A stretch of DNA of 41,793 bases from Bacteroidales bacterium. Its GTDB lineage: Bacteria; Bacteroidota; Bacteroidia; Bacteroidales; WCHB1-69. Position 1 is the first letter of the stretch; every line of letters starts with the position of its first letter. Under the pieces are notes generated by a model. The model worked only from the letters and a program-made list of their open reading frames with translations, made no database searches and was not told the origin of the DNA. Shown piece by piece: positions 1-41,793 of the stretch. The DNA is taken from assembly GCA_017617445.1 (NCBI GenBank), contig JAFZWE010000019.1:1-41793 (forward strand), given 5' to 3'. A program made the translations under genes and the position numbers.

Positions 1-440
1 ATGTGCAGCGTGACCACGGAGTCGCAGCCGTTGGCAGCGGTGAAGGTCTGGGTGTAGTCGTTGGATTGGTTGTAAACCTGGTCGTTCCAAGTGTAGCTTT
101 CGCAGCCGGAGTCGCTGAATTCGTAGGTGACGGGCTGGAGGATGGTGAGGTGCAGCGTGACCACGGAGTCGCAGCCGTTGCTGGCGGTGAAGGTCTGGGT
201 GTAGTCATCGGATTGGTTGTAAACCTGGTCGTTCCAAGTGTAGCTTTCGCAGCCAGAGTCGCTGAATTCGTAGGTGGCGGGCTGGAGAATGGTGAGGTGC
301 AGCGTGACCACTGAGTCACAGCCGTTGGCAGCAGTGAAGGTCTGGGTGTAGTCGTTGGATTGGTTGTAAACCTGGTCGTTCCAAGTGTAGCTTTCGCAGC
401 CGGAGTCGCTGAATTCATTGTTAACGACGGGATGCACGGT
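1..440 (-). repeat. 147-bp near-identical tandem repeats inside the left giant gene
   Basis: GAATTC-centred copies recur at 117, 264 and 411, exactly 147 bp apart, and the flanking bases are almost identical. Each unit encodes 49 residues with one C-E-S-Y-T-W and one G-C-D-S-V-V motif. A fourth, more diverged copy lies near 780-890. Because the unit is a whole number of codons, copy number can change without breaking the frame. Confidence 0.9.
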
Positions 441-3400: not shown

Positions 3401-4079
3401 ACAGGGCAGAAGTGCCGTTCGGCTCAGTGCCATCGGTGGTATAACGGATCTCAGCCCCTTCGGTGGTGCTGGCCAGCGTGACGGTCAGGGGGTTGTAGTA
3501 GGTGCCTGTCCCGGGGGTGAATGTCGGAGCACTGACGGTAGAGGGCGTGGTGCTCAAACGGAAAAACCGGATCTGGGTGTTGGAGATATTCCCGGTGGTG
3601 TTGGTGTAGCACCTCCAGTCGGGGTTGGTGACATATACACCGACGTATCGGTTGGTCCCGGTGTTTTTCAACCAGTTGGTTTCGTGCAGGGTGAAGCGGC
3701 TGTTTTCCCCTGTGCCTACACGCACGCCGTTATTGCTGTTGGTGCAGTACAGCCATCTTTCCGTGGTCCCGTCGGGATAAAAGATGTATCCGTCACTGTT
3801 GGGTTCGCTGATGTTCCACTTCAAATTGTCTTCCACATCGCTGATGACGGCAGTATTATCGCTGTTCAGGATGACCGCAATGGCCGCAGTGGCAGAGTTG
3901 GTGTTCGCTGTGTTTGGCATGGCCACTTGGCTGTTGACATCCACAATCATGAACACATCCGTCGGCGTGAGGTTGTTAAAATCGGTGATTTCCCATGTCT
4001 GCGCCTTGGACAATAAAGGACACATCCCTATCAGGATTGAAAAAATAAGGATGATTTGGTGCGTAAAATGTTTTTTCAT
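1..4079 (-). CDS. Giant secreted repeat protein, 5' part only (C-terminus off the left edge)
   Basis: The frame is open without a stop from an ATG at 4079 to the left edge, giving at least 1359 codons. Residues 1-27 are a signal peptide ending in a KAQ site. Domains then follow in order. A chitobiase-type CHB_HEX_C domain lies at about nt 3560-3300 (TDGTEP signature). A DUF5689-like OB-fold region lies at about 3300-2725. An InlB/Listeria-repeat-like domain lies at about 2375-2140 (F-I-G-W-S, ELYAVF). A carbohydrate-binding-like domain lies at about 2140-1690. From about 1680 to the edge there are at least ten Cys-containing repeats of roughly 50 residues, with the pattern C-E-S-Y-T-W ... G-C-D-S-V-V-T-L-H-L-T-I. 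The last three are near identical at DNA level with a 147-bp period. The protein is probably exported and cell-surface attached; a T9SS C-terminal domain is expected beyond the edge but not seen. The leader (4080-4188) is very AT-rich, with a possible imperfect -7 box at 4166-4173 and a palindrome at 4104-4118. Function is unknown; adhesion is an inference. Confidence 0.85.
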   Translation of the reverse strand, partial: MKKHFTHQIILIFSILIGMCPLLSKAQTWEITDFNNLTPTDVFMIVDVNSQVAMPNTANTNSATAAIAVILNSDNTAVISDVEDNLKWNISEPNSDGYIFYPDGTTERWLYCTNSNNGVRVGTGENSRFTLHETNWLKNTGTNRYVGVYVTNPDWRCYTNTTGNISNTQIRFFRLSTTPSTVSAPTFTPGTGTYYNPLTVTLASTTEGAEIRYTTDGTEPNGTSALYSSPLTISGTTTLKAIACTSTDTSHVATATYTFPAITDVNTISDLRSQAADNSTLYRLTGSAIVTLTASNRNHKYLQDATAGILIDDQPGHITTPYVAGDEITGIIGTLTIYNNLLEFQPVTDPGDPVSSGNSVSPIILTLDEISTTYEAMLVTVENVTIQANVDTFEYNKFYNLNEQSTVKVGAKYIESDLIGMDIPVLPQNITGVIYTYNSTFDIIPRNSNDVTPASSDCMELPTLNPVTTDLADRALNLHSSVAATGDFNCTVVDYGFVYSLTNPSPEISGEGCTQISLGNSIGTNEEFVHALDVLGFEPYYICAYATNNVGTAYSEVTTAYPAEPETYNVYYNVANISHYGDTPDTYTEGQPALTLQTLTDCPGGDFIGWSTSPIPTSTDVAPEVFTTLVPTQDTELYAVFATGDITADSIRITRESFTGESTSYGTDDAWSAVSAQGTTIDGWFDLYCPTNDRMQTNSNSANSMPYNETELPGSITEIRLTGGARGTARTWTPYVSTTPLNKDNYSEDGISLGGQTAVDNTASTQWEVPADAGYRYFYLDMTGGAAYLSEILITYQEGNLHYTSFPSDTISVTQAICEGQTFQSDFFNESEAGDYEYMEQNGYCTTYHLLHLDVNAPDTTHIYVDTCGSFTYEQTDYTTSTEFTVITPAESTYGCDSVTIYHINIRDTYEIHLDTTVCDVFQWEGEEYHETQLISNTLTAANGCDSVVYINLTVNQSVLEELYDTVCAAPYSWTWRSYNMECYTSGDYTLSGFTAENCTETAILHLTIGTPNDTAIHAAICSGDVYTENGFNVSEEGTYSITHTNAQGCDSVVTLYLTILQPATYEFSDSQCESYTWNEQIYDQSGDYTQTFIAANGCDSIVTLHLIIHQPVSTEIHAQICDGESYQSYNFNETEQGTYYQHLTTENFCDSTVILYLTVGNEAVTHISDQTCEGTAYTNNGFQIDNPAVGTTEYQRVIERPGTCDSIVNLTLTVHPVVNNEFSDSGCESYTWNDQVYNQSNDYTQTFTAANGCDSVVTLHLTILQPATYEFSDSGCESYTWNDQVYNQSDDYTQTFTASNGCDSVVTLHLTILQPVTYEFSDSGCESYTWNDQVYNQSNDYTQTFTAANGCDSVVTLH

Positions 4080-8478: not shown

Positions 8479-11073
8479 TTAGCGAATTACTGTAATTGTT
8501 CCGTTCAGGTCTCTGGTGGCGAGACCGGTGAGGGTATGGTATTTCACTTTGCACACATAATAATAGGTGCCGTCGGAGGATTCTCGGTGGGAGTACATGT
8601 CTTTCCCGTCCCAATGAATGTCGGTATCGGTGGTTTTGAAGACCAGCCGGCCCCAGCGGTTGTACAGGTAAAATTCCACGCCGGCTACATTTTCGTAAGG
8701 GAAGGGGATGAGTTCGTCGTTGTAGCCGTCTCCGTTCGGGGTGATGATGTTGGGAAGCTGGTAACTGGCGCAGTTCTCTCCGTCAAAACAGGTTTCTGCA
8801 GCGCGGGCAGACAGATTCCCCGCTGTGTCGATAGCCGCGATGGTGAAACATCCGACCACAAACGGCAGGTCGGAGAGCTGACGGTGGCAGGAGGCGGGAT
8901 AGCAGGACTCGTCATAGTAAAATGAGTCAATGATGACATAGTCATCGTCATACGTGGGTTTGTAATAAATATAGTATTGGTGGATGTCCAGGTAAGCGGA
9001 ATCAGAGGAGAACGACCAGCTCAAATCCACGCTTTGGCAGTCGGTGGTGACCGTGAGGGCAGGCACTTCCGGGGGAGTGAGGTCTGCGGGTACGGCGCAA
9101 TTTCGCTGCGAGCGGTTGTGGAAGGGGGCGATGGTGTCAGGGGCAAAGTAGCTTCCGCAGGCTTTGACGTAATAGCAATAGTTCTGCCCGTTTTGAAGGT
9201 TCTGATCCAGATACGACAACGTATCTTTTCCGACTACGGCAATGGAGTCAAAGGTGTGTAGGTCGGCATTTTGCCTGTAAATGACGTATTTGACATTGGT
9301 CCAGGGTACTTGTTCGTTCCATTGGAGCTGGAGTGCGCGGTCTGCCGGGGTGATGGAAAGCCGTACGGAGGAAGCCATATCAGAAGTCCCAGCCAACACC
9401 ATACTGTCGTTTACCTGTGCCCACAGTTCCACTTGGTAATAATAGGTCAAATCCTGTGTGTTTAGCTGGATATCTGTAAAAGTTGTGTCATCCAAGGAGT
9501 TGGAGGTGTGAATCAGTGCATTTTCGTAGGGGTTGGGGGATGTTCCTCTATAAAGGTGGTATTCGTAGTGAGGCCCGGGATACTGTATGGTGTCCAGTTC
9601 GCTGGCTTTCAGCCATTTCAAAAGAATGATGCCGTTCTCGCTGTCGGTCTCGTCTATATCCACATGGGTGATGCGGGGTACATCGTTGTGCAACAGGGTG
9701 CAGGCTTCGTCAGAAACATAGCTTTCGGAACCATCGTCAAAGAACGCCACCACGCGGTAACAGTATTCGGTCCCGTGGTAGAGGGGCAGCCCGCTTCCGT
9801 CATCCGTGAAATGGCAGTCTTGCCAGTTGTTGCAGTAGCCAATCAGACGGTAGCCGGTGTAACCGGGCAGGCCGGTTTCGCAGAGGTCTGGCTCAAATTC
9901 ATAGCTTCCGTTTCTGCGGTAGATGGCATATCCAGCCACATTGGTGCAGGTGTGTGAATCCCAGGAGAGTTGTATGGTGTTGCCTACGGGAAGGGCTACC
10001 AGGTTTTCTGGTGGGGGTGCCACCACAGTGACTAAAACAGTCTTGTAAGCGGATAGGTTGACCTGTGGCCCATTGTCAGCGGCTTTGAACAGGATGGAGT
10101 AGGGGGAGAGCTGGACGTGCTCGCAAGAGGTCTCCCACCAGAAGTGTCCGGTGACCGGAGGCGGGCCTTGGGCTGTGGTGAAGGTGGCGTGATGTTGTGC
10201 CAGCTGGAAAATCCCGCTTGTCGCGGTCAATGCCACTGAGGTGGAATTTGGGTCGGTGGCGGTCACGTCAAAGCGCAATGTATCGCCGGCGGTGATGCAG
10301 GTGTCTTCTATTGTATGGATGGTGGGTGGCTCGTTGTTGCACGGAATAATGGTGATCTGCATGTCACGGATAACACTGCCGATGAGCACGCCGTGCCGCC
10401 ACTCCTTGATCATGATGGCGATGTTGTATTCGCCCTGCATGACGGGGGAGTCCCAGATCAGGTCACCGGTCTGCGGGTCAATTCGGATATAGCTGCTGGC
10501 TTGGGGCAATGCATATCCGGGAATGTCCTCCCCGTCATATCCCCGGCAGGTGACCAGACTGTAGCTCAAGCTGTCGCCATCGGCATCGTAAGCGCCGGGA
10601 TTGTGGTAGTACAGGTGGTGCAGACATCCGTCGTCAATGGGGGGATTCAGCAATTGGGGAGAGGAATTCGCTCCCAGAAAGGGATTGATGATCAGCACGG
10701 TTTCAAGATAGAACGGGATGTTGACGGAATTGGGAATGTTGATGATGCCATCGTTGCGGTTGGGGTCCTCCAGTGAAACGGCGTATGTCCCGGTGGTGGG
10801 GAAGGTGTGCTCCGCGATATAAATGTTGCGACTGATGTCATTGGCCATGTTGACCTTGCTGTTGCGGGGCACAACAGATGAGGTTCCGTCTCCCCACAGG
10901 ATTTCAAGTTCCGGGCGGTCTGCCGCGCTGGGGGTGTAGGTGTAGGTCAGGATGGTGAAACGATAGGTGAGTCCGCTGACATGTTCGTAGGTGATTTCCC
11001 CGGCACGCTGGTGCGTGGCGAATGCGGCACAGGAGCCGAGGAAAAACAGCAATACGGTCAGCAGTCGTTTCAT
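8479..11073 (-). CDS. T9SS type-B sorted surface protein with FN3-like domains
   Basis: The product is 864 residues. A signal peptide (about 1-20) is followed by a PKD/cadherin-like N-terminal region. A D-A-D-G-D-S-L-S-Y motif near 180 is typical of Bacteroidota cadherin-like domains. Several fibronectin type III-like domains follow between about 350 and 760. From about 773 to the end there is a clear gliding-motility-associated C-terminal domain: I-I-T-P-N-G-D-G-Y-N-D, then Y-N-R-W-G, then W-D-G-K and D-G-T-Y-Y-Y. That domain is the type-B sorting signal for the type IX secretion system, so the protein should be exported across the outer membrane. The gene starts 11 nt after the M23 peptidase gene and is probably co-transcribed with it. 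Binding partner unknown. It is direct evidence that the genome should encode a T9SS. Confidence 0.92.
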   Translation of the reverse strand: MKRLLTVLLFFLGSCAAFATHQRAGEITYEHVSGLTYRFTILTYTYTPSAADRPELEILWGDGTSSVVPRNSKVNMANDISRNIYIAEHTFPTTGTYAVSLEDPNRNDGIINIPNSVNIPFYLETVLIINPFLGANSSPQLLNPPIDDGCLHHLYYHNPGAYDADGDSLSYSLVTCRGYDGEDIPGYALPQASSYIRIDPQTGDLIWDSPVMQGEYNIAIMIKEWRHGVLIGSVIRDMQITIIPCNNEPPTIHTIEDTCITAGDTLRFDVTATDPNSTSVALTATSGIFQLAQHHATFTTAQGPPPVTGHFWWETSCEHVQLSPYSILFKAADNGPQVNLSAYKTVLVTVVAPPPENLVALPVGNTIQLSWDSHTCTNVAGYAIYRRNGSYEFEPDLCETGLPGYTGYRLIGYCNNWQDCHFTDDGSGLPLYHGTEYCYRVVAFFDDGSESYVSDEACTLLHNDVPRITHVDIDETDSENGIILLKWLKASELDTIQYPGPHYEYHLYRGTSPNPYENALIHTSNSLDDTTFTDIQLNTQDLTYYYQVELWAQVNDSMVLAGTSDMASSVRLSITPADRALQLQWNEQVPWTNVKYVIYRQNADLHTFDSIAVVGKDTLSYLDQNLQNGQNYCYYVKACGSYFAPDTIAPFHNRSQRNCAVPADLTPPEVPALTVTTDCQSVDLSWSFSSDSAYLDIHQYYIYYKPTYDDDYVIIDSFYYDESCYPASCHRQLSDLPFVVGCFTIAAIDTAGNLSARAAETCFDGENCASYQLPNIITPNGDGYNDELIPFPYENVAGVEFYLYNRWGRLVFKTTDTDIHWDGKDMYSHRESSDGTYYYVCKVKYHTLTGLATRDLNGTITVIR

Positions 11074-27550: not shown

Positions 27551-27637
27551 GGAGAGGTGGGTGAGTGGCTTAAACCACCAGTTTGCTAAACTGACGTAGG
27601 AGTAATCCTACCGCGAGTTCGAATCTCGCCCTCTCCG
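27551..27637 (+). tRNA. tRNA-Ser (anticodon GCU)
   Basis: This 87-nt class II tRNA has acceptor stem GGAGAGG/CCTCTCC with discriminator G (27637). The anticodon stem-loop has GCT at its centre, reading AGC/AGU codons. A long variable arm (GTAGGA...TCCTAC) and the T-arm GCGAG-TTCGAAT-CTCGC follow. The 3' CCA is not encoded, so it is added after transcription. It is a single gene flanked by a promoter and a terminator, not part of a tRNA cluster. Confidence 0.97.
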
Positions 27638-27642
27638 CAAAC

Positions 27643-28223: not shown

Positions 28224-31200
28224 ATGAAACATTTTTATTCTTTTCTTGTGCTCACCTTGGCACTCTGCCTCTCATGGAGCAGCGCAAACGCACAGACATT
28301 GACTGTGCATGACGGAGAAAGTACGAACAGTTATGTTCCTGTCAATGGTCTCTGGGCCGATGCCTACCTGAAATGCGAGTATATCATGCCTGCCACTGAA
28401 CTGGCCGACATGAATGGAAAAGTCATCTCCGACATGACTTGGTATCTGAGTTCTCCCGCAGCGGAAGCGTGGACCGGCACCTTCCAAATCTTTATGAAAG
28501 AAGTGGGATTTACCGAAATCTCAGCCTACCAAGGCACTGAAGGCGCCACTGTTGTTTACGAAGGCACATTAGATGCGACCTCATCCACTTTGTTGGTGGA
28601 GTTCACCACACCGTATTTCTACAGTGGCGGAAACCTGCTCATAGGTGTGTATCAAACCGTAAAGGGTAACTACAAGAGCTGTTCCTTCACAGGTGAAGAT
28701 GTCACTGGTGCTTGCGTGCAAGGCTACAGCAGCACAAGCCTTGATGCTGTGACTGCTACACAACGCGACTTCATCCCCAAGACTACCTTCAGCTATGGTG
28801 AGCCTCCCGCCTGCCTCCAACCCACTAACCTCGTCGTCAACTACACGGGTGGCACCACCGCCACGGTAAGCTGGTCGTCTGCAGCCACCGCTTTCAATCT
28901 TGAAGTGAATGGGGGAGTGACTTCCATCACCGAGAATCCCTACACCTTGACCGGACTCGACCTTGCCACCACCTACGAAGTGAAAGTGCAGGCCGATTGC
29001 GGCGGCGGTGAGTTCAGCAACTGGACCAGTGGCGTCACCTTCACCACGGATTTGTGTATGCCTGAAGACCAGTGCGAAATCACCATCGTTCTTACCGACT
29101 CCTATGGTGATGGTTGGAACGGAAATAAGATGAATGTGGTGGATGCCTTGACGGACGTGGTACTTGGGACATATACACTCCCTACTTCTACCAGTGAGGA
29201 GACATTCACTCTTTCGGTTTGTAATGGACGCGACATTGATTTTGTTTATGATGCGAGTGGCTCTTTTCCGACTGAGAATGGGTGGACAATTACAGACAAC
29301 AACGGTGAGGTCATCACTGAGCATGAGGGATGTGGTAGTGGCTGCGCTCTCGGGTCAGGTGTTGTGGCAACCTTTACTCAGGATTGTACCCCCCCCACAT
29401 GTCCCAAGCCAACCCACTTCGCTGTCAATTCGTTGGGCTCCCGTGAGGTGGAGTTGAGCTGGTTCAACCTTAACCACGGGTCTGGCACATGGTGGATTCA
29501 GTACTCTGAATTGTCGGATTTCTCGTCTTCCTATCTCTATGGTGTAATAACGACATCGTATCCGAACGATTCCATTGTGGGCATCCTTGATGGCCTTGAC
29601 CCGGAAACGACCTACTATGCCCGCGTGCAACTCGACTGTGGCGGCGGTGACGAGAGCCAGTGGAGCAATACGGTGGTTTTCACCACGTTGGAGGTGTGCC
29701 CCACTCCCGCTGGTTTGGCCGCCACCGACATCACCGGCCATACCGCCAGCCTCGGTTGGACGGGCTCGGCCAGTAGCTACAACGTGCGTTATCGTCCTTG
29801 CAGCGGTGTTGGCCAAGACTTTGACAGCGGTCTCGGCGAATGGACCACCATTGATGCCGACGGCGACGGATACACTTGGATTCTCGCCTCGGAAACTCCC
29901 GGAGTGTATCATCTGACAAGTGCGGATCTTACTGGTTTGGGATATGACAATTCTGTTGATTTTATCGTTTCTGCCTCTTATTCTAACTACACCGCGGTAG
30001 AATTGACCCCCGACAACTACCTCGTTTCCCCGCAGGTGATGCTCGGTGGTTCCATCAGCTTCTATGCACAAGCACAGGATAAAAGCTATCCTGCTGAGCA
30101 TTTCGGTGTGGCCGTGTCCACAACGGGCAACACCAATGCCGCCGACTTTACCACCATTCAGGAATGGACCATGGTTGAAGATTACAGTGCAACCGAAAAT
30201 ACATGGGGGTACTACTCCGTTGACCTGAGTGACTATGCCGGACAGACCGGCTACGTGGCCATCCGTCACTTCGATTGCACCAACGAGTTCACGATCAATA
30301 TAGATGATATCAACATCACTGTCCCTACGAGTGATCCTTGGGTTGAGGCCACCGTCTCCACCAACAGTCTGGACATTGCCAGCGGACTTGAGCCCGAAAC
30401 CGACTACGAGTTCGAGGTGCAGTCCGACTGCGGATCGGATGGCATCAGCACATGGTCACACTCCACTTTCACCACCGACGTTGCCTGTATGACGCCCATC
30501 GAACTCACCGCCGGCATCCCCGGCCCCAGATATGTGGACCTATATTGGATGGAGAAGGGTACCGCCAGCGATTGGGACATCTATGTCAGTGGCATGCCGG
30601 AAGTGTCGGTGAGCGCTGGAGAAACAGAAGTCACCATTGTGAATGACACGGTATTCTACACGTTGACCGGACTGGTTGCCGGACTCGACTTTTCTGTGAA
30701 AGTGCGCAGCAATTGTGGCGGCGAGGGTGTGAGTGAGTGGAGCAACGAGGTGAATTTCACCACCGCAAATGCCTGCCCTGTGCCGGTTATTACCACAGAG
30801 GATATTACCCACATCATGGCCACTTCCGCCAATGTGGCATGGCACGGGTTCGCCGAGAACGACAGCTATGAGGTCAGCTATGCCCCAGCCACTGTCAATT
30901 CGCTCATTTCTGAGGAGTTCAGCACTTCAATTCCTTCCGGCTGGGAAAGCAAGTCCGGCCTGCTGGAAGACGTGATGAATGGAACTGAATTGGGATCCAC
31001 TTCCCAATGGAGTTTCGGCACTGCCAATGGAGTATTCGACGATCATGCAATAAACAATATTTATGGGTCATCAAAAAAGGCCTGGCTCATCACCCCGGCC
31101 ATTGACGTGGAAAACGGCAGTATATTGACCTTCGATATTGCACTGACCGCATACGATGGCACATTGGGTGCTCCTGCAACCACGGGAACAGACGACAGGT

Positions 31201-34200
31201 TTGTCGTATTGGTCACCACCGACGACGAGGCCACATGGACCATCCTGCGCGAATGGAACAACAGCGGATCAGAATACGTTTATAACAATATTCCCTGCTC
31301 AGCAGTAGGTGAGAATGTGTCCATTGATTTGAACAGTTATGCCGGACAAAGTGTACACATTGCTTTCTATGGAGAATCCACCGAATACAACGCCGACAAT
31401 GATCTGCATATCGACAATGTGATTGTCAGCACTATTGTCCCCGTCGGCGCATGGCAGACGGTCAGTGTCGCTTCAGCTTCCACCACCCTTATGGATCTTG
31501 AGCCCGGAACCCCCTACGTGGTGAAGGTGAAGGGCTTCTGTGATGGCGGTGCGGAAAGCAACGAAAGCGCCGTCGTGAACTTCACCACCCTGTCCTGCAA
31601 CGTCACCAGCTTCCCGTGGACGGTGGACTTCGAGGATATGGCTGAAAACACCGTTCCGGAATGCTGGGATAACTCCGCCTCGACTTCTCCCACCCTTGGC
31701 ACCGATCCTGAATATATTTGGGGCGTTTATGACGATGGGGACAACCAGATGATGTACATGTATAACTATGAAGTATATCCGGGTACAGCATTGATCAACA
31801 CACCGGTCATTAACCTGCCTTCAATGGGAGTGTATGCCCTTTCTTTCAACTATGCCCATCGTGCCTCCTGTGACCCGTTTGTCGTGAAGATTTCGACGGA
31901 TAATGGATTGACATTCACAGAACTGCAATCATACAGTGCGCATGACGGATATTCTGAGGATGTTCCGGGCGAATTCAAAGAAGCTTTTATCTCATTGGCA
32001 GATTATGCGGGTGAATCGGTGATCTTGCAGTTCTGTGCAGCACCCACATATGGCTATGGTACTATTTTTGTGGATAATATTACCATTGACGAGGCTCCCA
32101 GCTGTTTCAAACCCACCGAATTGGAGGCGGGAAGCACTACTGCCAATACGGCCACACTCCGCTGGACTGAAAACGGAACGGCCACCGCTTGGCAGATCTG
32201 CCTCGACGGCGATGAGGAAAACCTCATTGAAGCCAACAGCAATCCTTTCACCATTGAAGGTCTCACGGCCTCCACTGAATACACCGTCAAAGTACGCGCA
32301 TACTGTGCTGTGGATGACCAAAGCGCATGGAGCGATGTGGTGAACGTCATTACGAGCTGCGAAGCCATCCCCGTCAGGGTGGGTCAGCCCTATGTCCAGG
32401 ATTTTGAGGAACCTAATTTCCCGCCCGCCTGCGTGCGTGTCATTGCGGCAGCTGGTGGCAACTGGATGGACGGATACCAAAACCATACTGAATCAGGTTC
32501 AACCGGTGCTTATAGCTACTTCTTTGGCGACACCTATTTGGTATTGCCCGAACTTGAAATCGAGGATGACGGTAATGACGATACAAAAGTAAAACTCTCT
32601 TTCTGGTCATATAATAGTTACTACAATTATTATTATTTGGGCAGGAATGCAGTGGTGCTTTTGGATAATGACAACAATGAGACTGTAGAACTTTGGTCCC
32701 CTGCATCAGTATCGAATGAATGGGTAGAGAGCATTTTGGACCTCACTGCTTATAAGGGACAGACCATCAAGATTGCCTTTAAGTATGAAGGCTTTAATGC
32801 CCACGGCTGGTACCTTGACGACATCAAAGTGGGATTCACCTGCCCGGCACCTGCCGATCTGGCAGTCAGCCATGTCACAGATAATTCGGCCGATCTGACA
32901 TGGACCGGCACCCACGAAAGCTATACGGTAAGATACCGTGAGGCGACTGTCCCCACCTCCACACAACTCTTCTCCGAAAGCTTTGAGGGTTATGCTGATG
33001 AAGCGGCCCTTGAGGCGGTATGGACAGTCGCAGACCTCGGCAGTTATAGCGATAACACTGACGAACTTGGACTTTTTGCCAGTGGCGATGCAAGTCAGAC
33101 AGGCAGTCACGGTTTCAGATTCTCATCCTATTACGGCGATCCATCGGGCAACTTCGATCAGTATCTCATCTCACCGGAAATAGCCACTCCGGGCAGACTG
33201 GAATTTGCCTATAAGTCATCCGAAAACGAAGAAGATGTCTTCCGCGTGGGTTATTCCACCACTACGAATGATATTGCTGAATTTACATGGGGAGAAGAGA
33301 TCGCCCCCGATTACGATTGGCGAACTTTCTCAGAAAACATGCCTGAAGATGCCAAGTATTTCGCTATCAATTATACTGCGGTTTATGCATACCGGCTTTA
33401 TGTCGATGACATCACCATTTATGAACTGCAGCCTGCCGGCGAATGGCAGACCGTCAATGATGCTGGAAATCCAACCGCACTTAGCAGTTTGAACAGCGCG
33501 ACCCGATACGAAGTCATGGTGCAGGGCGATTGCGGTGTGGATGGCGTGAGTCCATGGAGCCATAGTCTGTTCTTTGCCACCCAGTGCAATCCCATCACCG
33601 ATTTGCCATGGAGTGAGGATTTTGAGGTCTTTGCCGTTAAAGCCATCCCTGCTTGTTGGGACAACTCCAGTTCCACATCCGCTTCGCTGGGTGATTATCC
33701 GCAATACATTTGGGGAGTATATGAATATAGCGGCAACAAGATGCTCCGTATGAATAACTTCTATGCTATGAGTGGTACAGCACTCATCAACTCCCCGATG
33801 GTTAACCTTCCGGCTGAAGTGCCCTATATTCTCGCTTTCGATTATGCCAACAAGGCCACCTGCGGCGATTTTATCGTAAAGGTTTCAACTGATTATGGGG
33901 AAACATTCACGGAACTGGGGACTTATTCGCAAGATGGTACCGATTACGTCAATCCGGGAGAATTTACTCCTGCTGAAATTTCTTTGGCCGATTATGCCGG
34001 TCAGACGGTCATCCTGCAGTTCTTTGCGAATGCCAATTATGGTGACGGCGCTATCTTCCTGGACAATGTCCAGATCAAATGCGGGGATGTCGTGGTGGAT
34101 TGGGAACATCCTTTCACTGAAGGTTTCGAGGGTGCCTTCCCGCCTGCCTGCTGGGACACCATTAATGTGGGGTCAGAAAGTTGGACAGATGACAATGGCT

Positions 34201-37200
34201 ATCATTATTCTGGTTCATCTTCTGCTTTCAGTGACTATTATGGTGATGTCTATCTGGTTATGCCAGAACTCACTATTGAGGATGACCACGATGCCGCCAC
34301 GCTGGCAAAACTCACTTTCTGGTCATATAATGATTATACACAGGATGGCGGACGGAATTCCGTCGTGCTGCTGGATGGCGGAGAGACTGAACTTTGGGGT
34401 ATAGCCCCTGATGAGGAAGAATGGGTAGGGGACACCATTGATCTTACCGCCTATAAAGGACAGACCATCCGCCTCGCTTTCAAGTATGAGGGACACGATG
34501 GTCATGGCTGGTATGTTGACGATGTGAATGTCTCATTCTATTGTCCTGCTCCCACCAACCTCGCGGCCAGCCATATCACCAAAAACACCGCTGATTTGAG
34601 CTGGACGGCCGCTGGTACCGAGCATGCTTGGCAGATCATGCTCAACGATGATGACGAACATCTCATTGAGGCCGATGCCAACCCGTTTACGGTCACCGGC
34701 TTATCCGCCAATACTACCTATACCGCCAGAGTGCGTGCCTTCTTCAGCACATCCTTCCAGAGCGACTGGAGCGAAGAAGTGGAATTCACCACTAAGTGCG
34801 ACGCCATCACCTCCTTCCCGTGGAGCGAGGACTTTGAGGCATTTACCGTCGATATTGACTTGGCTGATAACTGTTGGATGAACGAACATATCAGTGGAGA
34901 CGACTACAACCTGTTCAGGGTGTTTACAGATAATAATGGCAACAGCACGCACCAGTTGCTGCTGCCTGATATGGAAGCTGGTACGATGACCAAGCTGGTG
35001 CTTCCTGAAATGGATATCCCGACGGATGACTACTATTTCTTCATCGATGTGTACCGTAATAATGTCATTTGGAGTGGCAATGATTTGTATGAGGGTGAAG
35101 GTATACGGGTTTATGCAAGCACCGACGGCGAAATTGCCGGTGCCACCGAGTTGGCCTTCATCCCGCGCCATTGGTCAGTGGAAGGCAGTAATATCCCCGC
35201 CGAGGAAGAAGCGGGCTGGTACACCTACAAAATGCCGATTGGCAATGCCGGTACAACTTACATCATTCTGCGCGGCGAGAGCCAGTACAACGACGGAACC
35301 GCTATGGATAATTTCATGGTTCAGGAATGCAATATTCCCGCCACTACGGATGCAAGGACGGTCTGCGAGACTGAACTGCCCTACACTTGGAATGATGTGG
35401 TGTTCAACACGGCCGGCACGCAGGATGCCGTCCTGACCGCCGCCAACGGCTGCGACTCCGTGGTGACCATGACCCTCACGGTGAATCCGATCACCTACGG
35501 CATCGACGAGGTGACGGCATGCGACAGCTATACTTGGATTGACGGCAACACCTACACCGAGAGTACCAATACGCCGACCCACACGCTGACCAACGTAGCC
35601 GGTTGCGACAGTGTGGTGACGCTGCACCTGACCATCAACCACAAGACCTACGGTGTGGACGAGGTGACGGCTTACGGCAACAGCTATACGTGGATTGATG
35701 GCAACATCTACGACGAAAGCACCGATGAGCCGGTCTACACCATCGTGGGCGGCAATGCCAATGGCTGTGACAGTGTGGTGACGCTGCACCTGACCCTCAG
35801 CGAATGCCCGCTGCCAGTCCTGGAAACTGCCAATGTTACGAACATCACCCCCCATACCGTTGATGTGGAATGGACTGGAAACATGGAGAACGACAGTTAT
35901 GTGGTTAACTACAGAAAGAAAGCCCACTTTGATGGCATCACGGAAGATTTTTCTGCAGGTTGGCCTGACGGTTGGAGAGTCTATCAAGGCTTGCTGGAAG
36001 GCAACACAGCCGAACTATTTGTAAGTCCCCGTAATTCCTTCGAACTTTCAACAGATTCCTATAATTCGTTTGATAGGCATGCCAAGACCGTAATTTATGA
36101 TGATTTCCAACATTGGCTGGTGACTCCCGCTATTACGATTGCAGACGATGCCAGTTTGAGTTTCGATTTGGCTCTGATGGATGGTGTCAACCATACAGAT
36201 TTAAGAGGAACTGACGACAAGTTCATGGTATTGCTCTCGAACGATAACATGAACACATGGACCACCTTGCGTGAGTGGAACAACAGTGGTTCCCCATACG
36301 TTTTCAATGATATCGCCAATACCGCTACTGGTGAGAATGTCAGCATGGATATCGACAGCTATGTTGGACAAACCGTTTATGTTGCTTTTTATGTAGAATC
36401 CACCATCAACAATGCTTACAATACATTGCACATTGACAATGTGTATATTGGAGCTACGGTTCCTGACGGTGAATGGCAGGAAGTAACTGCTGTTTCAAGC
36501 CCCGTCACCCTCTCCGGCCTTGAATCCGAAGCCGAATATGAGGTGAGAGTGCAGGGTGTGTGTGCCGGTGGTGCAGAGAGCGAATGGAGCGACACGGTGA
36601 GCTTCACTACTCCGTTGTCTTGTCAGAAGCCTACAGATCTTGCAGTGGGTATGACAACACGCCAAACGGCGGCGCTGAGTTGGACAGAGAACGGCTCTGC
36701 CACTTCTTGGCAGATTATGCTCGACAATGATGGGGCCAATCTTGTCACTGCGGATGCGAATCCCTTCACCATTGAGGGACTTACGCCCAATACCACTTAT
36801 AGAGCCAAGGTGCGCGCATATTGTGGTGTCAGCGACCAGAGCCAATGGAGCAATGAGGTAGTCTTCCACACCCCCTGCGATGCGGTCACCTCCTTCCCAT
36901 GGACGGAAAATTTCAATGACCTTGCCTTGAGATACTCCATCCCCGATTGTTGGAACAACGACGAGAGTACGAATCTCCCCTCCACAGTATTCAAGTGGTG
37001 CTACAACGATATTCCAGGCATCGGTAACACTGGTGGCACCAGCCACGATGGTTCGAATTGTATTCGCTTCCTTGGTGCCAGAGATCTTAATTCCAACTTC
37101 CTGAAGACGATCCCGTTAAGCTTGCCCGAAACGCCGATGGAGTTGATTTTCTGGTACAAGAAATCAGTGGGGGATTTGTCTGTCTATATCTCCACAGACG

Positions 37201-40200
37201 GTGGCTACACGCACGAGACGGCCCTTGCTACTGACCTTGCGCATAAGTCTGACTGGAGCCCAAGTGATCCCATCGATCTCAGTGCATATGCTGGACAGGA
37301 GGTGGTCATCGTCTTCGAGGGAGCTTCCGTCGAAGACGATGATGTCTGCATCTATCTGGACGATGTCACGGTGAGGGAAATTCCTTCCTGCCGTGTTCCT
37401 ACTGCTTTGAGTGCTGCTCCCTCCGAGCACTCGGCTGAACTGAGCTGGACAGCTAACAGCGGCGAGACCGAGTGGACTCTTTATTGGAAGGAAAGCAATG
37501 AGAGCGACTATACCGAGGTGGCCGGTGTGACCGACAACCCATATACGCTGACAGGTCTGAATGACGGCACTGTTTACACGTATTATGTCGTCGCCAATTG
37601 CTCCGATTGGGAGGTAAGCGAGCCGTCAGGCACGTACGAATTCACCACTCGATGCGACGCAGTTACCACATTCCCATGGAGTGAGGATTTTGAAGGGTTT
37701 GTCGAAGGTGTTGATTTCGATGCTTATAATCGTTCACTCACCAATCCCTGCTGGAAGAACGAACCTATTGCCGGTATCTACATGCCGATGTTCTTCACTT
37801 CGCTGTTCACTATTGAATCCACAAATGTAGCCGGCAACAGCACTCAAAAGCTGTCGTATTATGCTGAAGATGGCATGATAACCAAGTTGGTGCTCCCTGA
37901 AATGGATATCCCGACGGATAACTATTATTTCTTCCTTGATGTGTACCGCCATGAAAATTGGCACAGTTGCGCTACCTATCAGAATGATGGTATAAGGGTT
38001 TATGCAAGTGTTGATGGGGAGATTGAAGGTGCCACCGAACTGGCCTTCATCCCACGTCATTATGAAGAGGGTAATGCTGTGATTCCTGCTGAAGAAACAG
38101 CGGGCTGGTACACTTACAGACTGCCTATCAGTAATACAGGTACTACTTATATTATCCTGCGTGGTGAAGACCAGTGTGGGAATGGTAACTTTATTGATAA
38201 CTTGGTTGTTCAGGAATGCAATATTACGAGTACGGAAGAAAGAGTTATCTGTGAGGCAGAGCTGCCCTACACATGGGATGATGAGGTGTTCGATGAAGCA
38301 GGTACACGGAATCTTGTGTTGACGGCCGCCAACGGCTGCGACTCTGTAGTGACCATGATCCTCACAGTGAATTATCCCACTACCGGCATCGACGAGGTGA
38401 CGGCTTGTGAAAGCTACGAATGGATTGACGGTGTGACCTACACTGAGAGCACCAACACGCCGACCTACACGCTGACCAATGCGGCAGGCTGCGACAGTGT
38501 GGTGACGCTGCACCTGACCATCAACCACGCAAACACCGGTATCGACGAAGTGACCGCGTATGGCAGCTACACTTGGATTGACGGCAACACCTACACTGAA
38601 AGCACCGACGCTCCGACCTATACGCTGACCAATGCGGCAGGCTGCGACAGTGTGGTGACTTTGTACCTGACTTTGTACGACTGCCCGGTTCCGGTTCTTG
38701 AACAGTCTGGTATTACCAACATAACCGCTAATTCCGCCGATGTGGAATGGACTGGCAATGTGGGTAGCGACAGCTATGTGGTGAACTACAGAACTGCAGA
38801 GTCCATAGATGTTCAGCTTTCAGAAAACTTTGAAATATCTTCTGCTTTTGAAAACAATTGGACGGTGGTGAACTACAGTTTGGGAAATGAAAGCAAAATA
38901 GGCCGTACAGATATCGATGTTCACGGAGGTGAATACGGTTTCAGATTCTCTTCCTATAACAGTTATACTACTTACGAGGAACATCTCATCAACAATAATG
39001 AATTGACAGGCATCACCGATGGTGTTATTGAATTCTATTATAAGAAAGACCATTCTCTTACAGAAACATTCAAGGTGGGTTATTCAAATACTGACAATGA
39101 TCCTGCTAGTTTCGCTTTTGGAGAAGACCATGTGGCTGCAATGGAATGGCAGCTGTTCCATGAGGCAATTCCGGCGGGCACCAAGTATGTGTCCATCCAA
39201 TACACAACTACAGGATGCAACTTTTACCTCTACATTGATGACATCGCTATCGGCAACAGAGTCCCTGCTGGCGAATGGCTGACGATGGATGCCCCCTCAA
39301 ACTCCACCACCCTTGCCGGTCTTGAGCCCGAAACTGAATATGAGGTGAGAGTGCAGGGATTGTGCGGCATTGGTTCAGAAAGTGAATGGAGTGATACCAT
39401 ACGTTTCACCACCCTCGAGACTTGCCCGTCACCCACAGAACTTACTACTGGTACTATTACCAATCATAGTATAGAACTGAATTGGACGGAGAACGGATCC
39501 GCCACTGCTTGGCAGATTATGCTCAACGATGACGAAGAAAACCTTGTGGATGCGGATGCCAATCCTTTCATCTTAGACGGACTTGCATTGAATACCACCT
39601 ACATTGCCAGAGTGCGTGCATATTGTAGTGGCAGTGACCAGAGTGAATGGAGCAACCAAGTGAACTTTACCACGCTTTGCGATGGTATTTCGGATTTCCC
39701 GTGGACGGAAAACTTCAACGAACTTACCGAGGAAAACTCCATCCCAGACTGCTGGAACAACAATGAGGGAACGACTGTTTCGAATGCCTACATGTGGTCG
39801 TATGTTATCGCCACTTCAGGCAATGGTGCCACCAATGGCACCAGCCACGATGGTTCGAAATGCGTGCGTTTCGATTCCTATGTAAATCCCAATAACTGCA
39901 CCAGCTTCCTGAAGACTGTTCCGCTTACACTTCCGGATACGCCTATGGAGCTGACTTTCTGGTACAAGAATCCTACTGGTGGCGACTTCTCTGTCTATAT
40001 TTCCACCGATGGCGGTTTCACTCATGAAACGGCACTTGTTACGGGTCTTACGGATATGCCTGAGTGGACATGGCATGACCCCATTGACCTCAGTACATAC
40101 TCCGGACAGAACGTGGTGATCGTTTTCAAAGGAACCTCCAACTATGGCACCGGTGATGCCTTCATCTATCTGGACGATGTTACGGTAAAGGAAATTCCTT

Positions 40201-41793
40201 CATGCGCAGTACCTACCGCTCTGGGTGCTACGCCCGACATTTATTCGGCCGATTTGAGCTGGACGGCTAACAGCGGTGAATCCGAGTGGACTATTTATTG
40301 GAAGGAAAGCAGCGAAGATAACTATACTGAGGTGACCGGCGTGACCGAAAACCCCTATACGCTGACAGGTCTGAATCAAAACACCACCTACGATTTCTAT
40401 GTAGTGGCTAACTGCTCTGATATTGATGCAAGTGAACCGTCATATTCTTACAGATTTACGACACAGTGCGGTGTGATCAGCACTTTCCCGTGGCGTGAAA
40501 ACTTTGAAAGGTTTGCCGCCGACAATAACGGTATTAATCTCAGTGACCCATGCTGGGTGAACGAGCATATTGGAGAGGGAACTGGCTATTTGTTCCGTGT
40601 GTGCACAAGTTACAATGGTACCAACAGCACTCACCAGTTGAAATTGCCTGATATGGCCGCTGGCACGTTGACCAAACTGATGCTTCCTGAAATGGACATC
40701 CCAACGGATGACTACTACTTCTTCTTAGATGTGTACCGCTCCAGTGACACCTACCAAGACTATCCTTATCAGGAAGAGGGTATTCGAGTATTTGCCAGCA
40801 CGGATGGCGAGATTGAAGGCGCTACCGAATTGGGCTTCATCCCGCGTCACTATCAGGTGAGCAGCGCAAATATTCCTGCTGAAGCGGAGAGAGGTTGGTA
40901 CACCTATAAGCTGCCTATCAACAACAGCGGAACAACCTTCATTATTCTGCGCGGCGAGAGTCAGTATTGTGCACCAACCTATATGGATAATTTTGTGGTA
41001 CAGGAATGCAACATTGCTACTACCGACACAAGAACTGTCTGCGCTTCTGAATTGCCGCTCACTTGGAATGGTGTGCTATTCAACGAAGCCGGCACACAAG
41101 ATGCCATCCTGACGGCTGCCAATGGCTGTGACTCTGTGGTGACCATGACCCTCACCGTCAACACTCCGGTTCATACGGCCATGACAGAAACCGCTTGCGA
41201 CACCTACACATGGACCCATGTGGATGCCACCACACAGGACTATACTGAGAGCGGTGACTACACTTATGAGCACGCTGACGCTAATGGCTGTACGCAGGTG
41301 GATACGCTGCACCTGACCATCAACTACAGCACTACAGGTGTTGACGAGCAGGCGGCTTGCGACAGCTACGAGTGGATCGACGGTGTGACCTACACGGAGA
41401 GCAACAGCACCGCCACCTTCACGCTGACCAACGCGGCAGGTTGCGACAGTATCGTGACGCTCAACTTGACCATCAACCACGCCACCAACGTGGCCACCAC
41501 TGCTTCTGCTGTCGAAACCTACACGTGGAATCATGTGGATGCCACCACTGCAACCTACACCGAAAGCGGTGTCTTCACCTACGAGCATGCTGACGCCAAT
41601 GGCTGTACGCAGGTGGATACCTTGTACCTGACCATCTATCAGGCCTCTGAGAACGAGTTCGCCGCCACGGCTTGCGAGTCCTACACATGGAACGAGCAGA
41701 CCTACACCGTTTCCGGCGACTATGTACAGAACTTCACCGACATCCATGGTGCGGACAGCACGGTGACCTTGCACCTGACCATCAACAACCCGG
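28224..41793 (+). CDS. Giant adhesin-like multidomain surface protein, 5' part (continues past right edge)
   Basis: One frame stays open from ATG 28224 to the last base, at least 4523 codons. A signal peptide (cleaved near 23, A-N-A-Q) and a ~170-residue N-terminal domain are followed by fibronectin type III (FN3) domains. A Y-G-D-G-W-N-G domain lies at about 29062-29390. Many cleaved-adhesin / choice-of-anchor J domains occur (F-P-W-[ST]-E-[DN]-F start, C-W-x-N, ending [VIL]-D-[DN]-[IV]), one with the gingipain-adhesin-like I-D-A-D-G-D-G-Y. In five places the adhesin-like domain sits inside an FN3 fold. A 959-residue super-repeat runs 35805-38681 and again from 38682. Cys repeats of the type C-x-S-Y-T-W ... 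G-C-D-S-V-V-T-L-H-L-T-I occur at 35328-35804, 38216-38681 and 41005 to the end. Likely exported (T9SS sorting domain expected off-edge) and surface-attached; ligand unknown. No frameshift was found by hand translation. Confidence 0.93.
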   Translation, partial: MKHFYSFLVLTLALCLSWSSANAQTLTVHDGESTNSYVPVNGLWADAYLKCEYIMPATELADMNGKVISDMTWYLSSPAAEAWTGTFQIFMKEVGFTEISAYQGTEGATVVYEGTLDATSSTLLVEFTTPYFYSGGNLLIGVYQTVKGNYKSCSFTGEDVTGACVQGYSSTSLDAVTATQRDFIPKTTFSYGEPPACLQPTNLVVNYTGGTTATVSWSSAATAFNLEVNGGVTSITENPYTLTGLDLATTYEVKVQADCGGGEFSNWTSGVTFTTDLCMPEDQCEITIVLTDSYGDGWNGNKMNVVDALTDVVLGTYTLPTSTSEETFTLSVCNGRDIDFVYDASGSFPTENGWTITDNNGEVITEHEGCGSGCALGSGVVATFTQDCTPPTCPKPTHFAVNSLGSREVELSWFNLNHGSGTWWIQYSELSDFSSSYLYGVITTSYPNDSIVGILDGLDPETTYYARVQLDCGGGDESQWSNTVVFTTLEVCPTPAGLAATDITGHTASLGWTGSASSYNVRYRPCSGVGQDFDSGLGEWTTIDADGDGYTWILASETPGVYHLTSADLTGLGYDNSVDFIVSASYSNYTAVELTPDNYLVSPQVMLGGSISFYAQAQDKSYPAEHFGVAVSTTGNTNAADFTTIQEWTMVEDYSATENTWGYYSVDLSDYAGQTGYVAIRHFDCTNEFTINIDDINITVPTSDPWVEATVSTNSLDIASGLEPETDYEFEVQSDCGSDGISTWSHSTFTTDVACMTPIELTAGIPGPRYVDLYWMEKGTASDWDIYVSGMPEVSVSAGETEVTIVNDTVFYTLTGLVAGLDFSVKVRSNCGGEGVSEWSNEVNFTTANACPVPVITTEDITHIMATSANVAWHGFAENDSYEVSYAPATVNSLISEEFSTSIPSGWESKSGLLEDVMNGTELGSTSQWSFGTANGVFDDHAINNIYGSSKKAWLITPAIDVENGSILTFDIALTAYDGTLGAPATTGTDDRFVVLVTTDDEATWTILREWNNSGSEYVYNNIPCSAVGENVSIDLNSYAGQSVHIAFYGESTEYNADNDLHIDNVIVSTIVPVGAWQTVSVASASTTLMDLEPGTPYVVKVKGFCDGGAESNESAVVNFTTLSCNVTSFPWTVDFEDMAENTVPECWDNSASTSPTLGTDPEYIWGVYDDGDNQMMYMYNYEVYPGTALINTPVINLPSMGVYALSFNYAHRASCDPFVVKISTDNGLTFTELQSYSAHDGYSEDVPGEFKEAFISLADYAGESVILQFCAAPTYGYGTIFVDNITIDEAPSCFKPTELEAGSTTANTATLRWTENGTATAWQICLDGDEENLIEANSNPFTIEGLTASTEYTVKVRAYCAVDDQSAWSDVVNVITSCEAIPVRVGQPYVQDFEEPNFPPACVRVIAAAGGNWMDGYQNHTESGSTGAYSYFFGDTYLVLPELEIEDDGNDDTKVKLSFWSYNSYYNYYYLGRNAVVLLDNDNNETVELWSPASVSNEWVESILDLTAYKGQTIKIAFKYEGFNAHGWYLDDIKVGFTCPAPADLAVSHVTDNSADLTWTGTHESYTVRYREATVPTSTQLFSESFEGYADEAALEAVWTVADLGSYSDNTDELGLFASGDASQTGSHGFRFSSYYGDPSGNFDQYLISPEIATPGRLEFAYKSSENEEDVFRVGYSTTTNDIAEFTWGEEIAPDYDWRTFSENMPEDAKYFAINYTAVYAYRLYVDDITIYELQPAGEWQTVNDAGNPTALSSLNSATRYEVMVQGDCGVDGVSPWSHSLFFATQCNPITDLPWSEDFEVFAVKAIPACWDNSSSTSASLGDYPQYIWGVYEYSGNKMLRMNNFYAMSGTALINSPMVNLPAEVPYILAFDYANKATCGDFIVKVSTDYGETFTELGTYSQDGTDYVNPGEFTPAEISLADYAGQTVILQFFANANYGDGAIFLDNVQIKCGDVVVDWEHPFTEGFEGAFPPACWDTINVGSESWTDDNGYHYSGSSSAFSDYYGDVYLVMPELTIEDDHDAATLAKLTFWSYNDYTQDGGRNSVVLLDGGETELWGIAPDEEEWVGDTIDLTAYKGQTIRLAFKYEGHDGHGWYVDDVNVSFYCPAPTNLAASHITKNTADLSWTAAGTEHAWQIMLNDDDEHLIEADANPFTVTGLSANTTYTARVRAFFSTSFQSDWSEEVEFTTKCDAITSFPWSEDFEAFTVDIDLADNCWMNEHISGDDYNLFRVFTDNNGNSTHQLLLPDMEAGTMTKLVLPEMDIPTDDYYFFIDVYRNNVIWSGNDLYEGEGIRVYASTDGEIAGATELAFIPRHWSVEGSNIPAEEEAGWYTYKMPIGNAGTTYIILRGESQYNDGTAMDNFMVQECNIPATTDARTVCETELPYTWNDVVFNTAGTQDAVLTAANGCDSVVTMTLTVNPITYGIDEVTACDSYTWIDGNTYTESTNTPTHTLTNVAGCDSVVTLHLTINHKTYGVDEVTAYGNSYTWIDGNIYDESTDEPVYTIVGGNANGCDSVVTLHLTLSECPLPVLETANVTNITPHTVDVEWTGNMENDSYVVNYRKKAHFDGITEDFSAGWPDGWRVYQGLLEGNTAELFVSPRNSFELSTDSYNSFDRHAKTVIYDDFQHWLVTPAITIADDASLSFDLALMDGVNHTDLRGTDDKFMVLLSNDNMNTWTTLREWNNSGSPYVFNDIANTATGENVSMDIDSYVGQTVYVAFYVESTINNAYNTLHIDNVYIGATVPDGEWQEVTAVSSPVTLSGLESEAEYEVRVQGVCAGGAESEWSDTVSFTTPLSCQKPTDLAVGMTTRQTAALSWTENGSATSWQIMLDNDGANLVTADANPFTIEGLTPNTTYRAKVRAYCGVSDQSQWSNEVVFHTPCDAVTSFPWTENFNDLALRYSIPDCWNNDESTNLPSTVFKWCYNDIPGIGNTGGTSHDGSNCIRFLGARDLNSNFLKTIPLSLPETPMELIFWYKKSVGDLSVYISTDGGYTHETALATDLAHKSDWSPSDPIDLSAYAGQEVVIVFEGASVEDDDVCIYLDDVTVREIPSCRVPTALSAAPSEHSAELSWTANSGETEWTLYWKESNESDYTEVAGVTDNPYTLTGLNDGTVYTYYVVANCSDWEVSEPSGTYEFTTRCDAVTTFPWSEDFEGFVEGVDFDAYNRSLTNPCWKNEPIAGIYMPMFFTSLFTIESTNVAGNSTQKLSYYAEDGMITKLVLPEMDIPTDNYYFFLDVYRHENWHSCATYQNDGIRVYASVDGEIEGATELAFIPRHYEEGNAVIPAEETAGWYTYRLPISNTGTTYIILRGEDQCGNGNFIDNLVVQECNITSTEERVICEAELPYTWDDEVFDEAGTRNLVLTAANGCDSVVTMILTVNYPTTGIDEVTACESYEWIDGVTYTESTNTPTYTLTNAAGCDSVVTLHLTINHANTGIDEVTAYGSYTWIDGNTYTESTDAPTYTLTNAAGCDSVVTLYLTLYDCPVPVLEQSGITNITANSADVEWTGNVGSDSYVVNYRTAESIDVQLSENFEISSAFENNWTVVNYSLGNESKIGRTDIDVHGGEYGFRFSSYNSYTTYEEHLINNNELTGITDGVIEFYYKKDHSLTETFKVGYSNTDNDPASFAFGEDHVAAMEWQLFHEAIPAGTKYVSIQYTTTGCNFYLYIDDIAIGNRVPAGEWLTMDAPSNSTTLAGLEPETEYEVRVQGLCGIGSESEWSDTIRFTTLETCPSPTELTTGTITNHSIELNWTENGSATAWQIMLNDDEENLVDADANPFILDGLALNTTYIARVRAYCSGSDQSEWSNQVNFTTLCDGISDFPWTENFNELTEENSIPDCWNNNEGTTVSNAYMWSYVIATSGNGATNGTSHDGSKCVRFDSYVNPNNCTSFLKTVPLTLPDTPMELTFWYKNPTGGDFSVYISTDGGFTHETALVTGLTDMPEWTWHDPIDLSTYSGQNVVIVFKGTSNYGTGDAFIYLDDVTVKEIPSCAVPTALGATPDIYSADLSWTANSGESEWTIYWKESSEDNYTEVTGVTENPYTLTGLNQNTTYDFYVVANCSDIDASEPSYSYRFTTQCGVISTFPWRENFERFAADNNGINLSDPCWVNEHIGEGTGYLFRVCTSYNGTNSTHQLKLPDMAAGTLTKLMLPEMDIPTDDYYFFLDVYRSSDTYQDYPYQEEGIRVFASTDGEIEGATELGFIPRHYQVSSANIPAEAERGWYTYKLPINNSGTTFIILRGESQYCAPTYMDNFVVQECNIATTDTRTVCASELPLTWNGVLFNEAGTQDAILTAANGCDSVVTMTLTVNTPVHTAMTETACDTYTWTHVDATTQDYTESGDYTYEHADANGCTQVDTLHLTINYSTTGVDEQAACDSYEWIDGVTYTESNSTATFTLTNAAGCDSIVTLNLTINHATNVATTASAVETYTWNHVDATTATYTESGVFTYEHADANGCTQVDTLYLTIYQASENEFAATACESYTWNEQTYTVSGDYVQNFTDIHGADSTVTLHLTINNP
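35805..41160 (+). repeat. Two copies of a ~2.9-kb coding super-repeat
   Basis: Copy 1 spans 35805-38681 (2877 bp, 959 codons). Copy 2 begins at 38682 with the same opening (C-P-x-P-V-L-E) and follows the same module order through at least 41160. The order is nested FN3/adhesin, FN3, adhesin-like, FN3, adhesin-like, Cys repeats. A third, partial copy of the final block lies at 34797-35804. Protein similarity between copies is high but the DNA has diverged, so the duplication is not very recent. Confidence 0.85.

Follow-up and report, generated by a model that had tools for sequence, protein, structure and literature searches.

The window analyzed here, which is the whole stretch of DNA under study (one entire contig, G000:C6, of 41793 bases), comes from a Bacteroidales bacterium whose genome is 80% complete. 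It carries the gene for a giant protein, P0001 (28224..41792, + strand), of which 4523 residues are encoded up to the contig end at 41793, the C-terminus lying beyond that end. Pfam detects in P0001 12 stretches of fibronectin type III (FN3; family fn3, PF00041) over the cut-off of 25 bits, together with Cleaved_Adhesin (PF07675, cut-off 21.4 bits) and MAM matches, and NCBIfam detects choice_anch_J (NF038128, cut-off 30 bits) with 11 stretches over cut-off. The question raised by this locus is whether the choice-of-anchor J domains (J domains) simply follow FN3 domains in a chain or are set inside some of them, and what such an arrangement might serve. A preliminary description of the sequence had claimed five FN3 domains interrupted by an adhesin-like domain. 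All five interruptions are present, and the inserts are indeed adhesin-like; that description had not named them as choice-of-anchor J, the gingipain cleaved-adhesin family.

Five split FN3 domains in P0001

The split units (S1-S5, all on the + strand) each consist of a first FN3 part of 39-45 residues, an insert, and a second FN3 part of 54 residues. S1 (29697-30479) has a first part (29697..29813) that matches fn3 2-38 (15.6 bits) and closes in Y-N-V-R-Y plus a linker, an insert (29814..30317) that matches NF038128 with 98.8 bits and PF07675 with 95.5 bits as well as the PDB structures 3m1h (E 3.9e-22), 4itc and 3km5, and a second part (30318..30479) that matches fn3 43-81 (17.7 bits). The same order is seen in S3 (32841-33581), with a first part at 32841..32966 (fn3 2-45, 21.4 bits), an insert at 32967..33419 (NF038128, 55.8 bits) and a second part at 33420..33581 (fn3 37-81, 12.9 bits), and in S4 (35805-36611), with the corresponding features at 35805..35936 (fn3 7-38, 13.7 bits), 35937..36449 (NF038128, 56.8 bits) and 36450..36611 (fn3 42-83, 27.4 bits). 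The first parts of S2 (30774-31589) and S5 (38682-39413), located at 30774..30905 and 38682..38816, respectively, align with those of the other units; their inserts (30906..31427 and 38817..39251) score 43.4 and 47.1 bits with NF038128, and their second parts (31428..31589 and 39252..39413) match fn3 42-83 (26.6 bits) and 40-83 (32.6 bits). Each insert is one full choice_anch_J domain, with the match starting at model position 1, 2 or 4 and ending at 162 of 162. PF07675 is barely above its cut-off in S3 (21.7 bits), scores 12.4 bits in S5 and is unlisted at E 10 in S2 and S4. The inserts are 168, 174, 151, 171 and 145 residues long; the length of 165-185 residues given earlier fits S1, S2 and S4 and is slightly high for S3 and S5, and at all ten ends the insert limits proposed at that time are wider than those of choice_anch_J, by 10-23 nt.

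The FN3 of a split unit is not one contiguous domain, as 145-174 residues intervene. Whole units S1-S5 score 28.9, 31.0, 30.9, 33.5 and 41.0 bits with Pfam fn3, all above cut-off; the model matches them in pieces only, with two stretches over cut-off in four of the five. When the first parts were scanned alone, three (S1, S3 and S4) matched fn3, each under cut-off. All five second parts matched, those of S2, S4 and S5 exceeding the cut-off despite covering half of the model. A genome-wide fn3 search gave the same picture: the matches at 31449, 36471 and 39267 start at model position 39-41. For the window's uninterrupted FN3s the search listed eight matches, and six of these run from 2 to 82 or 83. 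No half spans a full fn3, which agrees with the earlier view that the halves are not separate complete domains.

To locate the insert within the FN3 fold, the profile A2, built from 14 units, was searched against all sequences in the PDB. In its central part it hits three structures of gingipain adhesins (3m1h, 4itc and 3km5). On chain 9ot8_A, a designed FN3con fusion, A2 positions 4-38 align with residues 6-41 and positions 211-241 with residues 42-74 (whole-chain E 1.3e-15; individual pieces 14-17 bits). Thus, 172 profile positions are skipped with no residue of the chain lost, and the FN3 runs on across the insert. A second FN3 copy in the same chain shows the same pattern (residues 133-168, then 169-205), and the two parts of S5 meet at residue 38 of chain 5j7k_A, at weak scores of 5.3 and 14.6 bits. 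None of the best 60 of 116 matched PDB chains had a best stretch covering both halves plus the insert. The interrupted turn is the one which, from established FN3 topology, we take to be the C-C' hairpin. The empty site also occurs in natural relatives: 68 of 390 uninterrupted FN3s share the flanking strand ends (identified by text pattern), and the turn has 6 residues in 59 of these 68 and 8-10 in the remainder.

The motifs proposed for the split units were found to differ in strictness. Y-x-V-x-Y at the end of the first part occurs in all five split FN3s and in none of the nine uninterrupted ones of P0001, exactly as had been claimed, and is a weaker rule among relatives (70 of 106 split versus 18 of 390 uninterrupted FN3s). 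The others, I-D-[DN]-[IV] (4/5), G-x-W-x-x-V (3/5), T-L-x-G-L (2/5) and Y-x-V-x-V-x-G (4/5), stand as a consensus and are not strict. Linkers in S1-S5 are short, with 7-10 residues from Y-x-V-x-Y to the J domain and 7-8 from the J domain to the W. As judged from sequence, it is almost certain that each of five FN3s is opened at the C-C' turn to take up an entire J domain and that this nested architecture, placed at the C-C' loop already by the preliminary description, is real and regular. Both parts would then build a single FN3 fold.

Split units in relatives and the histories of their parts

Similar units were detected in many genomes. Profile A1 matches 30 of 41 genomes (the window's own plus relatives), and A2 matches 98 of 104 genomes in the family, 68 of 393 in the order (at E 1e-20) and 113 of 394 in the phylum, many of these A1 and A2 genome matches spanning the J part alone. 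Within the order, the listed A2 matches that span the whole unit come from three families, f1, f132 and f134. Among the named relatives, many were assembled from samples of the rumen or the gut of ruminants.

The context of near-full J domains from 210 sources was classed with three separate models, one for the J domain and one for each of the two FN3 parts. The models of first part, J domain and second part gave 681, 550 and 717 matches, respectively, on the frames of the 210 sources and 0, 0 and 0 on the reversed sequences, which excludes chance as an explanation of the matches. Among 457 distinct J domains, 107 are nested, following a first part and preceding a second one (67 sources), 131 show the opposite order and lie between whole FN3s (76 sources) and 219 lack a recognized FN3 half on one or both sides; the loci had been fetched with a nested unit as query, and these counts are not frequencies. 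A mixed context, with the same kind of FN3 part on both sides of the J domain, was seen in none of the 238 J domains flanked on both sides. The first 153 sources alone gave 104 nested, 125 linear and 0 mixed cases among 380 J domains.

The split FN3s, hereafter sockets, group with one another irrespective of what they hold. For 106 split units, with neighbors restricted to other sources and to at most 85% identity, the nearest neighbor of a split half is also split for 100 first and 101 second halves. The J domains of these units form four groups (54, 44, 7 and 1) unlinked by BLAST at 1e-12, and 92 of 106 first and 88 of 106 second halves lie nearer to a split half carrying a different J group than to the closest uninterrupted FN3; in this comparison, uninterrupted FN3s outnumber split ones almost fourfold. 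In a 238-row J tree (FastTree), the nested or linear context requires 9 changes as against 78 when shuffled, at least 3 of them forced. A 53-row tree, from which five long-branch rows and same-context rows redundant in 48% identity clusters were omitted, requires 8 as against 17, and well-supported branches force at least 6 of the 8. These context changes indicate that J lineages entered or left the socket several times. A single ancestral insertion followed by duplication only is ruled out by the 53-row tree, and repeated independent insertions into unrelated FN3s are less likely, since split halves cluster across J groups. Distance correlations were also calculated for 82 of 102 split units retained after thinning. 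The partial correlation is 0.20 between first and second part given J (p 0.001), 0.15 between second part and J given the first (p 0.001) and 0.07 between first part and J given the second (p 0.063). This co-variation agrees with both parts forming one FN3, without proving it.

J domains are not the only inserts at this site. The preliminary description had covered neither other insert families in relatives nor the RTX split-domain precedent discussed below. FN3 halves 45-420 residues apart with no J match between them were found in 20 cases, 18 of them at 100-200 residues, and Pfam was run on 10 of these 18. DUF2436 is present in four (L081, L103, L145 and L092, with 155.0, 181.1, 174.5 and 166.8 bits, respectively; cut-off 25), and four others contain an insert that we call R-type. 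One R-type insert weakly resembles DUF4082 and choice_anch_R; neither assignment was accepted, as the scores in this sole matching unit are below cut-off (26.0 of 28.4 and 28.0 of 30). The inserts of L088 and L140, with D-F-E close to the start and V-D-D/N-I at the end, match no insert family and may be distant J relatives. L115 and L124, whose halves are 333-334 residues apart, were rejected as new inserts, because both harbor additional segments resembling FN3 and J and give the impression of a missed linear order. Different inserts also occur in one protein or side by side: L250 (3717 residues) has a J unit, then an R-type unit and Por_Secre_tail at its end, and in L242 an R-type unit immediately precedes a J unit. 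L241 (5959 residues, one split unit) also carries choice-of-anchor Q matches.

An order-wide DUF2436 search matched 21 of 393 genomes (30 loci, of which 28 distinct rows were read). One row has the C-C' socket (L217), one has both recognized halves of a B-C type (L226), and three have the downstream half alone (L236 and L239, with cut ends, and weakly L211). The other 23 rows have no recognized FN3 half, which rules out that DUF2436 is tied to the socket. The one DUF2436 protein in the window's own genome (L211; G000:C10:4512-4967, - strand; 184.5 bits) lies outside a recognized C-C' socket.

Another geometry was noticed in L041 (G000:C45), L195, L201, L202, L205, L207 and L226, where the insert follows FN3 strand B and precedes a Y-x-[IV]-Y-R-like strand C. 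As a lead only, these cleaved-adhesin and DUF2436 inserts might occupy the B-C loop of a different FN3 type. Small purpose-built models assign this geometry to 7 of 219 J domains, and to DUF2436 in L226. Pfam fn3 is found in only one of eight B-C type units (L201, 24.6 bits, below the cut-off of 25). In L213, L233 and L237 (genome G604), DUF2436 appears by eye to interrupt an FN3-like stretch, from an F-T-W-N-like strand to a G-[FY]-T-V-Y-L-D strand.

Export, known counterparts and possible function

The N-terminus of P0001 resembles, as judged by eye, a signal peptide closing in ANA-Q. SprA, the outer-membrane translocon of type IX secretion, is present in the window's own genome (2541 bits), as are 78 Por_Secre_tail matches, 77 of them over cut-off; the organism therefore has a type IX secretion system. 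Within the window, an 864-residue protein (8479-11073, - strand) ends in a CHU_C type IX secretion signal. The C-termini of four complete relatives with split units were tested, and L250 (59.6 bits) and L251 end in Por_Secre_tail. It is likely that the C-terminus of P0001, past the contig end, carries a type IX sorting signal as well.

Split-domain display is known from RTX adhesins. Split Ig-like domains were described in AhLap of Aeromonas hydrophila (PMC12077191) and FrhA of Vibrio cholerae (PMC10865825). In the available text of both papers, the split domain makes a ligand-binding domain face outward, both ends of the latter lying on the same side, several different inserts occur per protein, a domain emerging from the split domain binds glycans, and homology programs are said to be prone to overlook such domains. 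P0001 is similar, when compared by description, in that a shaft domain is discontinuous around a complete second domain. It differs in that the split domain is FN3 rather than the Ig-like shaft domain of RTX adhesins, the organism is a member of Bacteroidales with type IX secretion rather than a producer of type I-secreted RTX proteins, the units are spaced along the shaft, and the inserts (relatives included) are of the J/cleaved-adhesin or DUF2436 family. Pfam detects no RTX family in P0001, and the protein is not a member of the RTX adhesins. What is new here is the fold, the phylum, the secretion route and the set of heads.

The same two insert families also occur, in combinatorial order and with adhesin binding motifs interspersed, in the gingipains and HagA of Porphyromonas gingivalis (PMC5266723). 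As far as the accessible text of that paper goes, the modules form a series which in RgpA and Kgp stands behind a protease domain; this likeness, too, is one of description. Neither "fibronectin" nor "nested" is mentioned in that portion of the text. The cleaved adhesin domain is thought to serve adhesion, lysis and carbohydrate binding, according to the part of PMC11982257 available. Tandem FN3 and J proteins of Bacteroidota have the same families next to each other, as do P0001 itself and other families of the phylum, but there J lies between whole FN3s (the 131 cases above) or elsewhere, whereas in split units it is inside one FN3. Our literature search found no paper pairing choice-of-anchor J with fibronectin type III, and none joining cleaved adhesin, fibronectin type III and Bacteroidetes. 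Among the matches listed for nested, inserted or split domains and for split FN3, the arrangement was absent, the 2010-2011 structural papers on gingipain adhesins being outside this coverage.

We suggest that P0001 is probably a giant fibrillar surface adhesin, which a Bacteroidales bacterium with ruminant-gut kin exports through type IX secretion. The shaft of this adhesin would be a chain of FN3 and J domains in which five FN3s are sockets of a special kind. In a socket, the chain would form strands A-B-C, leave through the C-C' turn over 7-10 residues, build a complete jelly-roll J domain, come back to the conserved W after 7-8 residues and complete the FN3 with strands C'-E-F-G. With both its ends on one face of the shaft, the J domain would stand sideways with its far surface free, like the ligand-binding domains of RTX adhesins, and the fiber might be branched rather than linear. 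The socket sequence would be retained over evolution while the insert is swapped, presumably by recombination, among several J lineages, DUF2436 and other types. The best reading is thus a type IX-secreted fiber whose FN3 sockets hold exchangeable heads out to the side, where they probably bind a ligand (perhaps a glycan or a protein). We hold this reading with moderate confidence; the lateral display, which is borrowed from RTX adhesins, appears reasonably probable.

Several observations weigh against this reading. The isolated first parts of S2 and S5 gave no fn3 match (that of S2 no Pfam match at all). Fourteen first and 17 second halves of the 106 are nearer to an uninterrupted FN3, with one tied, and 20 of these 31 exceptional halves fall in the 44-unit J group that includes S1, S3 and S5. 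The correlation of 0.15 between second part and J nearly equals that of 0.20 between the halves, so co-variation by itself is not enough to identify the halves as one fold. In the phylum-wide A2 draw, with six candidates scored per genome, no whole-unit match was found beyond the order among the matches listed, and the context counts derive from loci fetched with a nested unit. Two of the four tested relatives lack a type IX sorting domain at the C-terminus (L241, which has no family there, and L248, which has a FISUMP domain). Finally, purpose-built models recognize 14 J domains in P0001, of which 5 are nested in FN3 and 9 are not; the J domain thus does not need the socket.

The nine J domains that build the shaft in tandem would also fit a role of the nested ones as stiffeners or spacers that widen or protect the shaft, any adhesion then coming from other domains, and the short linkers would equally suit a rigid ornament. 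We regard this as rather unlikely, since different insert families at one fixed site are expected more of heads selected for new targets, and since the domain emerging from an RTX split domain binds glycans in the available text of PMC12077191 and PMC10865825. A maturation similar to that of gingipains, in which cleavage between modules at the cell surface leaves the pieces associated and the split FN3 clamps the J domain once the chain is cut, is improbable, as the Pfam matches of P0001 include no protease family. Surface loops favor insertions and multi-domain surface proteins shuffle freely, and a J domain might have entered a tolerant loop by chance and spread by duplication without any function. 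However, at least six context changes lie on supported branches, yet the sockets cluster together; linkers vary by few residues in most units, and unrelated families occupy the same site, all of which leaves such neutral accretion very improbable. Hardly credible is a linear chain with J domains between half-FN3 remnants, the two parts never joining into a single FN3: it is ruled out by the lack of mixed contexts among the 238 J domains, and in addition both parts make one gapless FN3 on a solved FN3 and relatives with an empty site exist.

Returning to sockets with exchangeable heads, a broader version can be considered. It would hold that Bacteroidales evolved an FN3 socket independently of RTX adhesins, that unrelated heads are exchanged by recombination between the halves, that a second version opens a different FN3 type at its B-C loop, and that this latter plan underlies the adhesin regions of gingipains and HagA in periodontal bacteria, where the adhesin binding motifs would be FN3 halves. 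All of this together is possible, though we lean toward doubting it; the gingipain link, if true, would explain the motifs between gingipain adhesin modules. In family scans, a protein of this kind looks like a row of FN3 and J matches and its nesting stays hidden, so that likely heads are overlooked. A simple sequence rule, by which FN3 halts after Y-x-V-x-Y and restarts at W-x-x-V, flags many split units (the strict motif being present in the 70 of 106 noted above). As this rule marks likely heads, their ligands become directly testable.

Remaining features of P0001 and of the window

The nine uninterrupted FN3s of P0001 (U1-U9, by reading of the sequence; + strand, as are all features of this protein) are located at 28812..29051, 29400-29687, 30486-30764, 32103-32354, 34542-34793, 36621-36872, 37389-37649, 39423-39674 and 40203-40463. 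The first of the nine non-nested J domains is at 31626..32087, the second to fifth are at 32397-32831, 33615-34076, 34119-34532 and 34827-35321, and the sixth to ninth at 36906-37373, 37692-38210, 39708-40187 and 40497-41000. P0001 also has three blocks of 51-54-residue repeats (35448-35790, 38334-38670 and 41124-41640), marked by G-C-D-S-V or G-C-T-Q-V with ten occurrences in all. Each block comes after a J domain, and the first two come before a split unit.

Elsewhere in the window, a second large protein (3-4079, - strand), cut by the opposite contig end, has CHB_HEX_C_1, Fn3_assoc and weak DUF5689 matches, and tRNA-Ser(gct) is located at 27551-27638 (+ strand), upstream of the P0001 gene.

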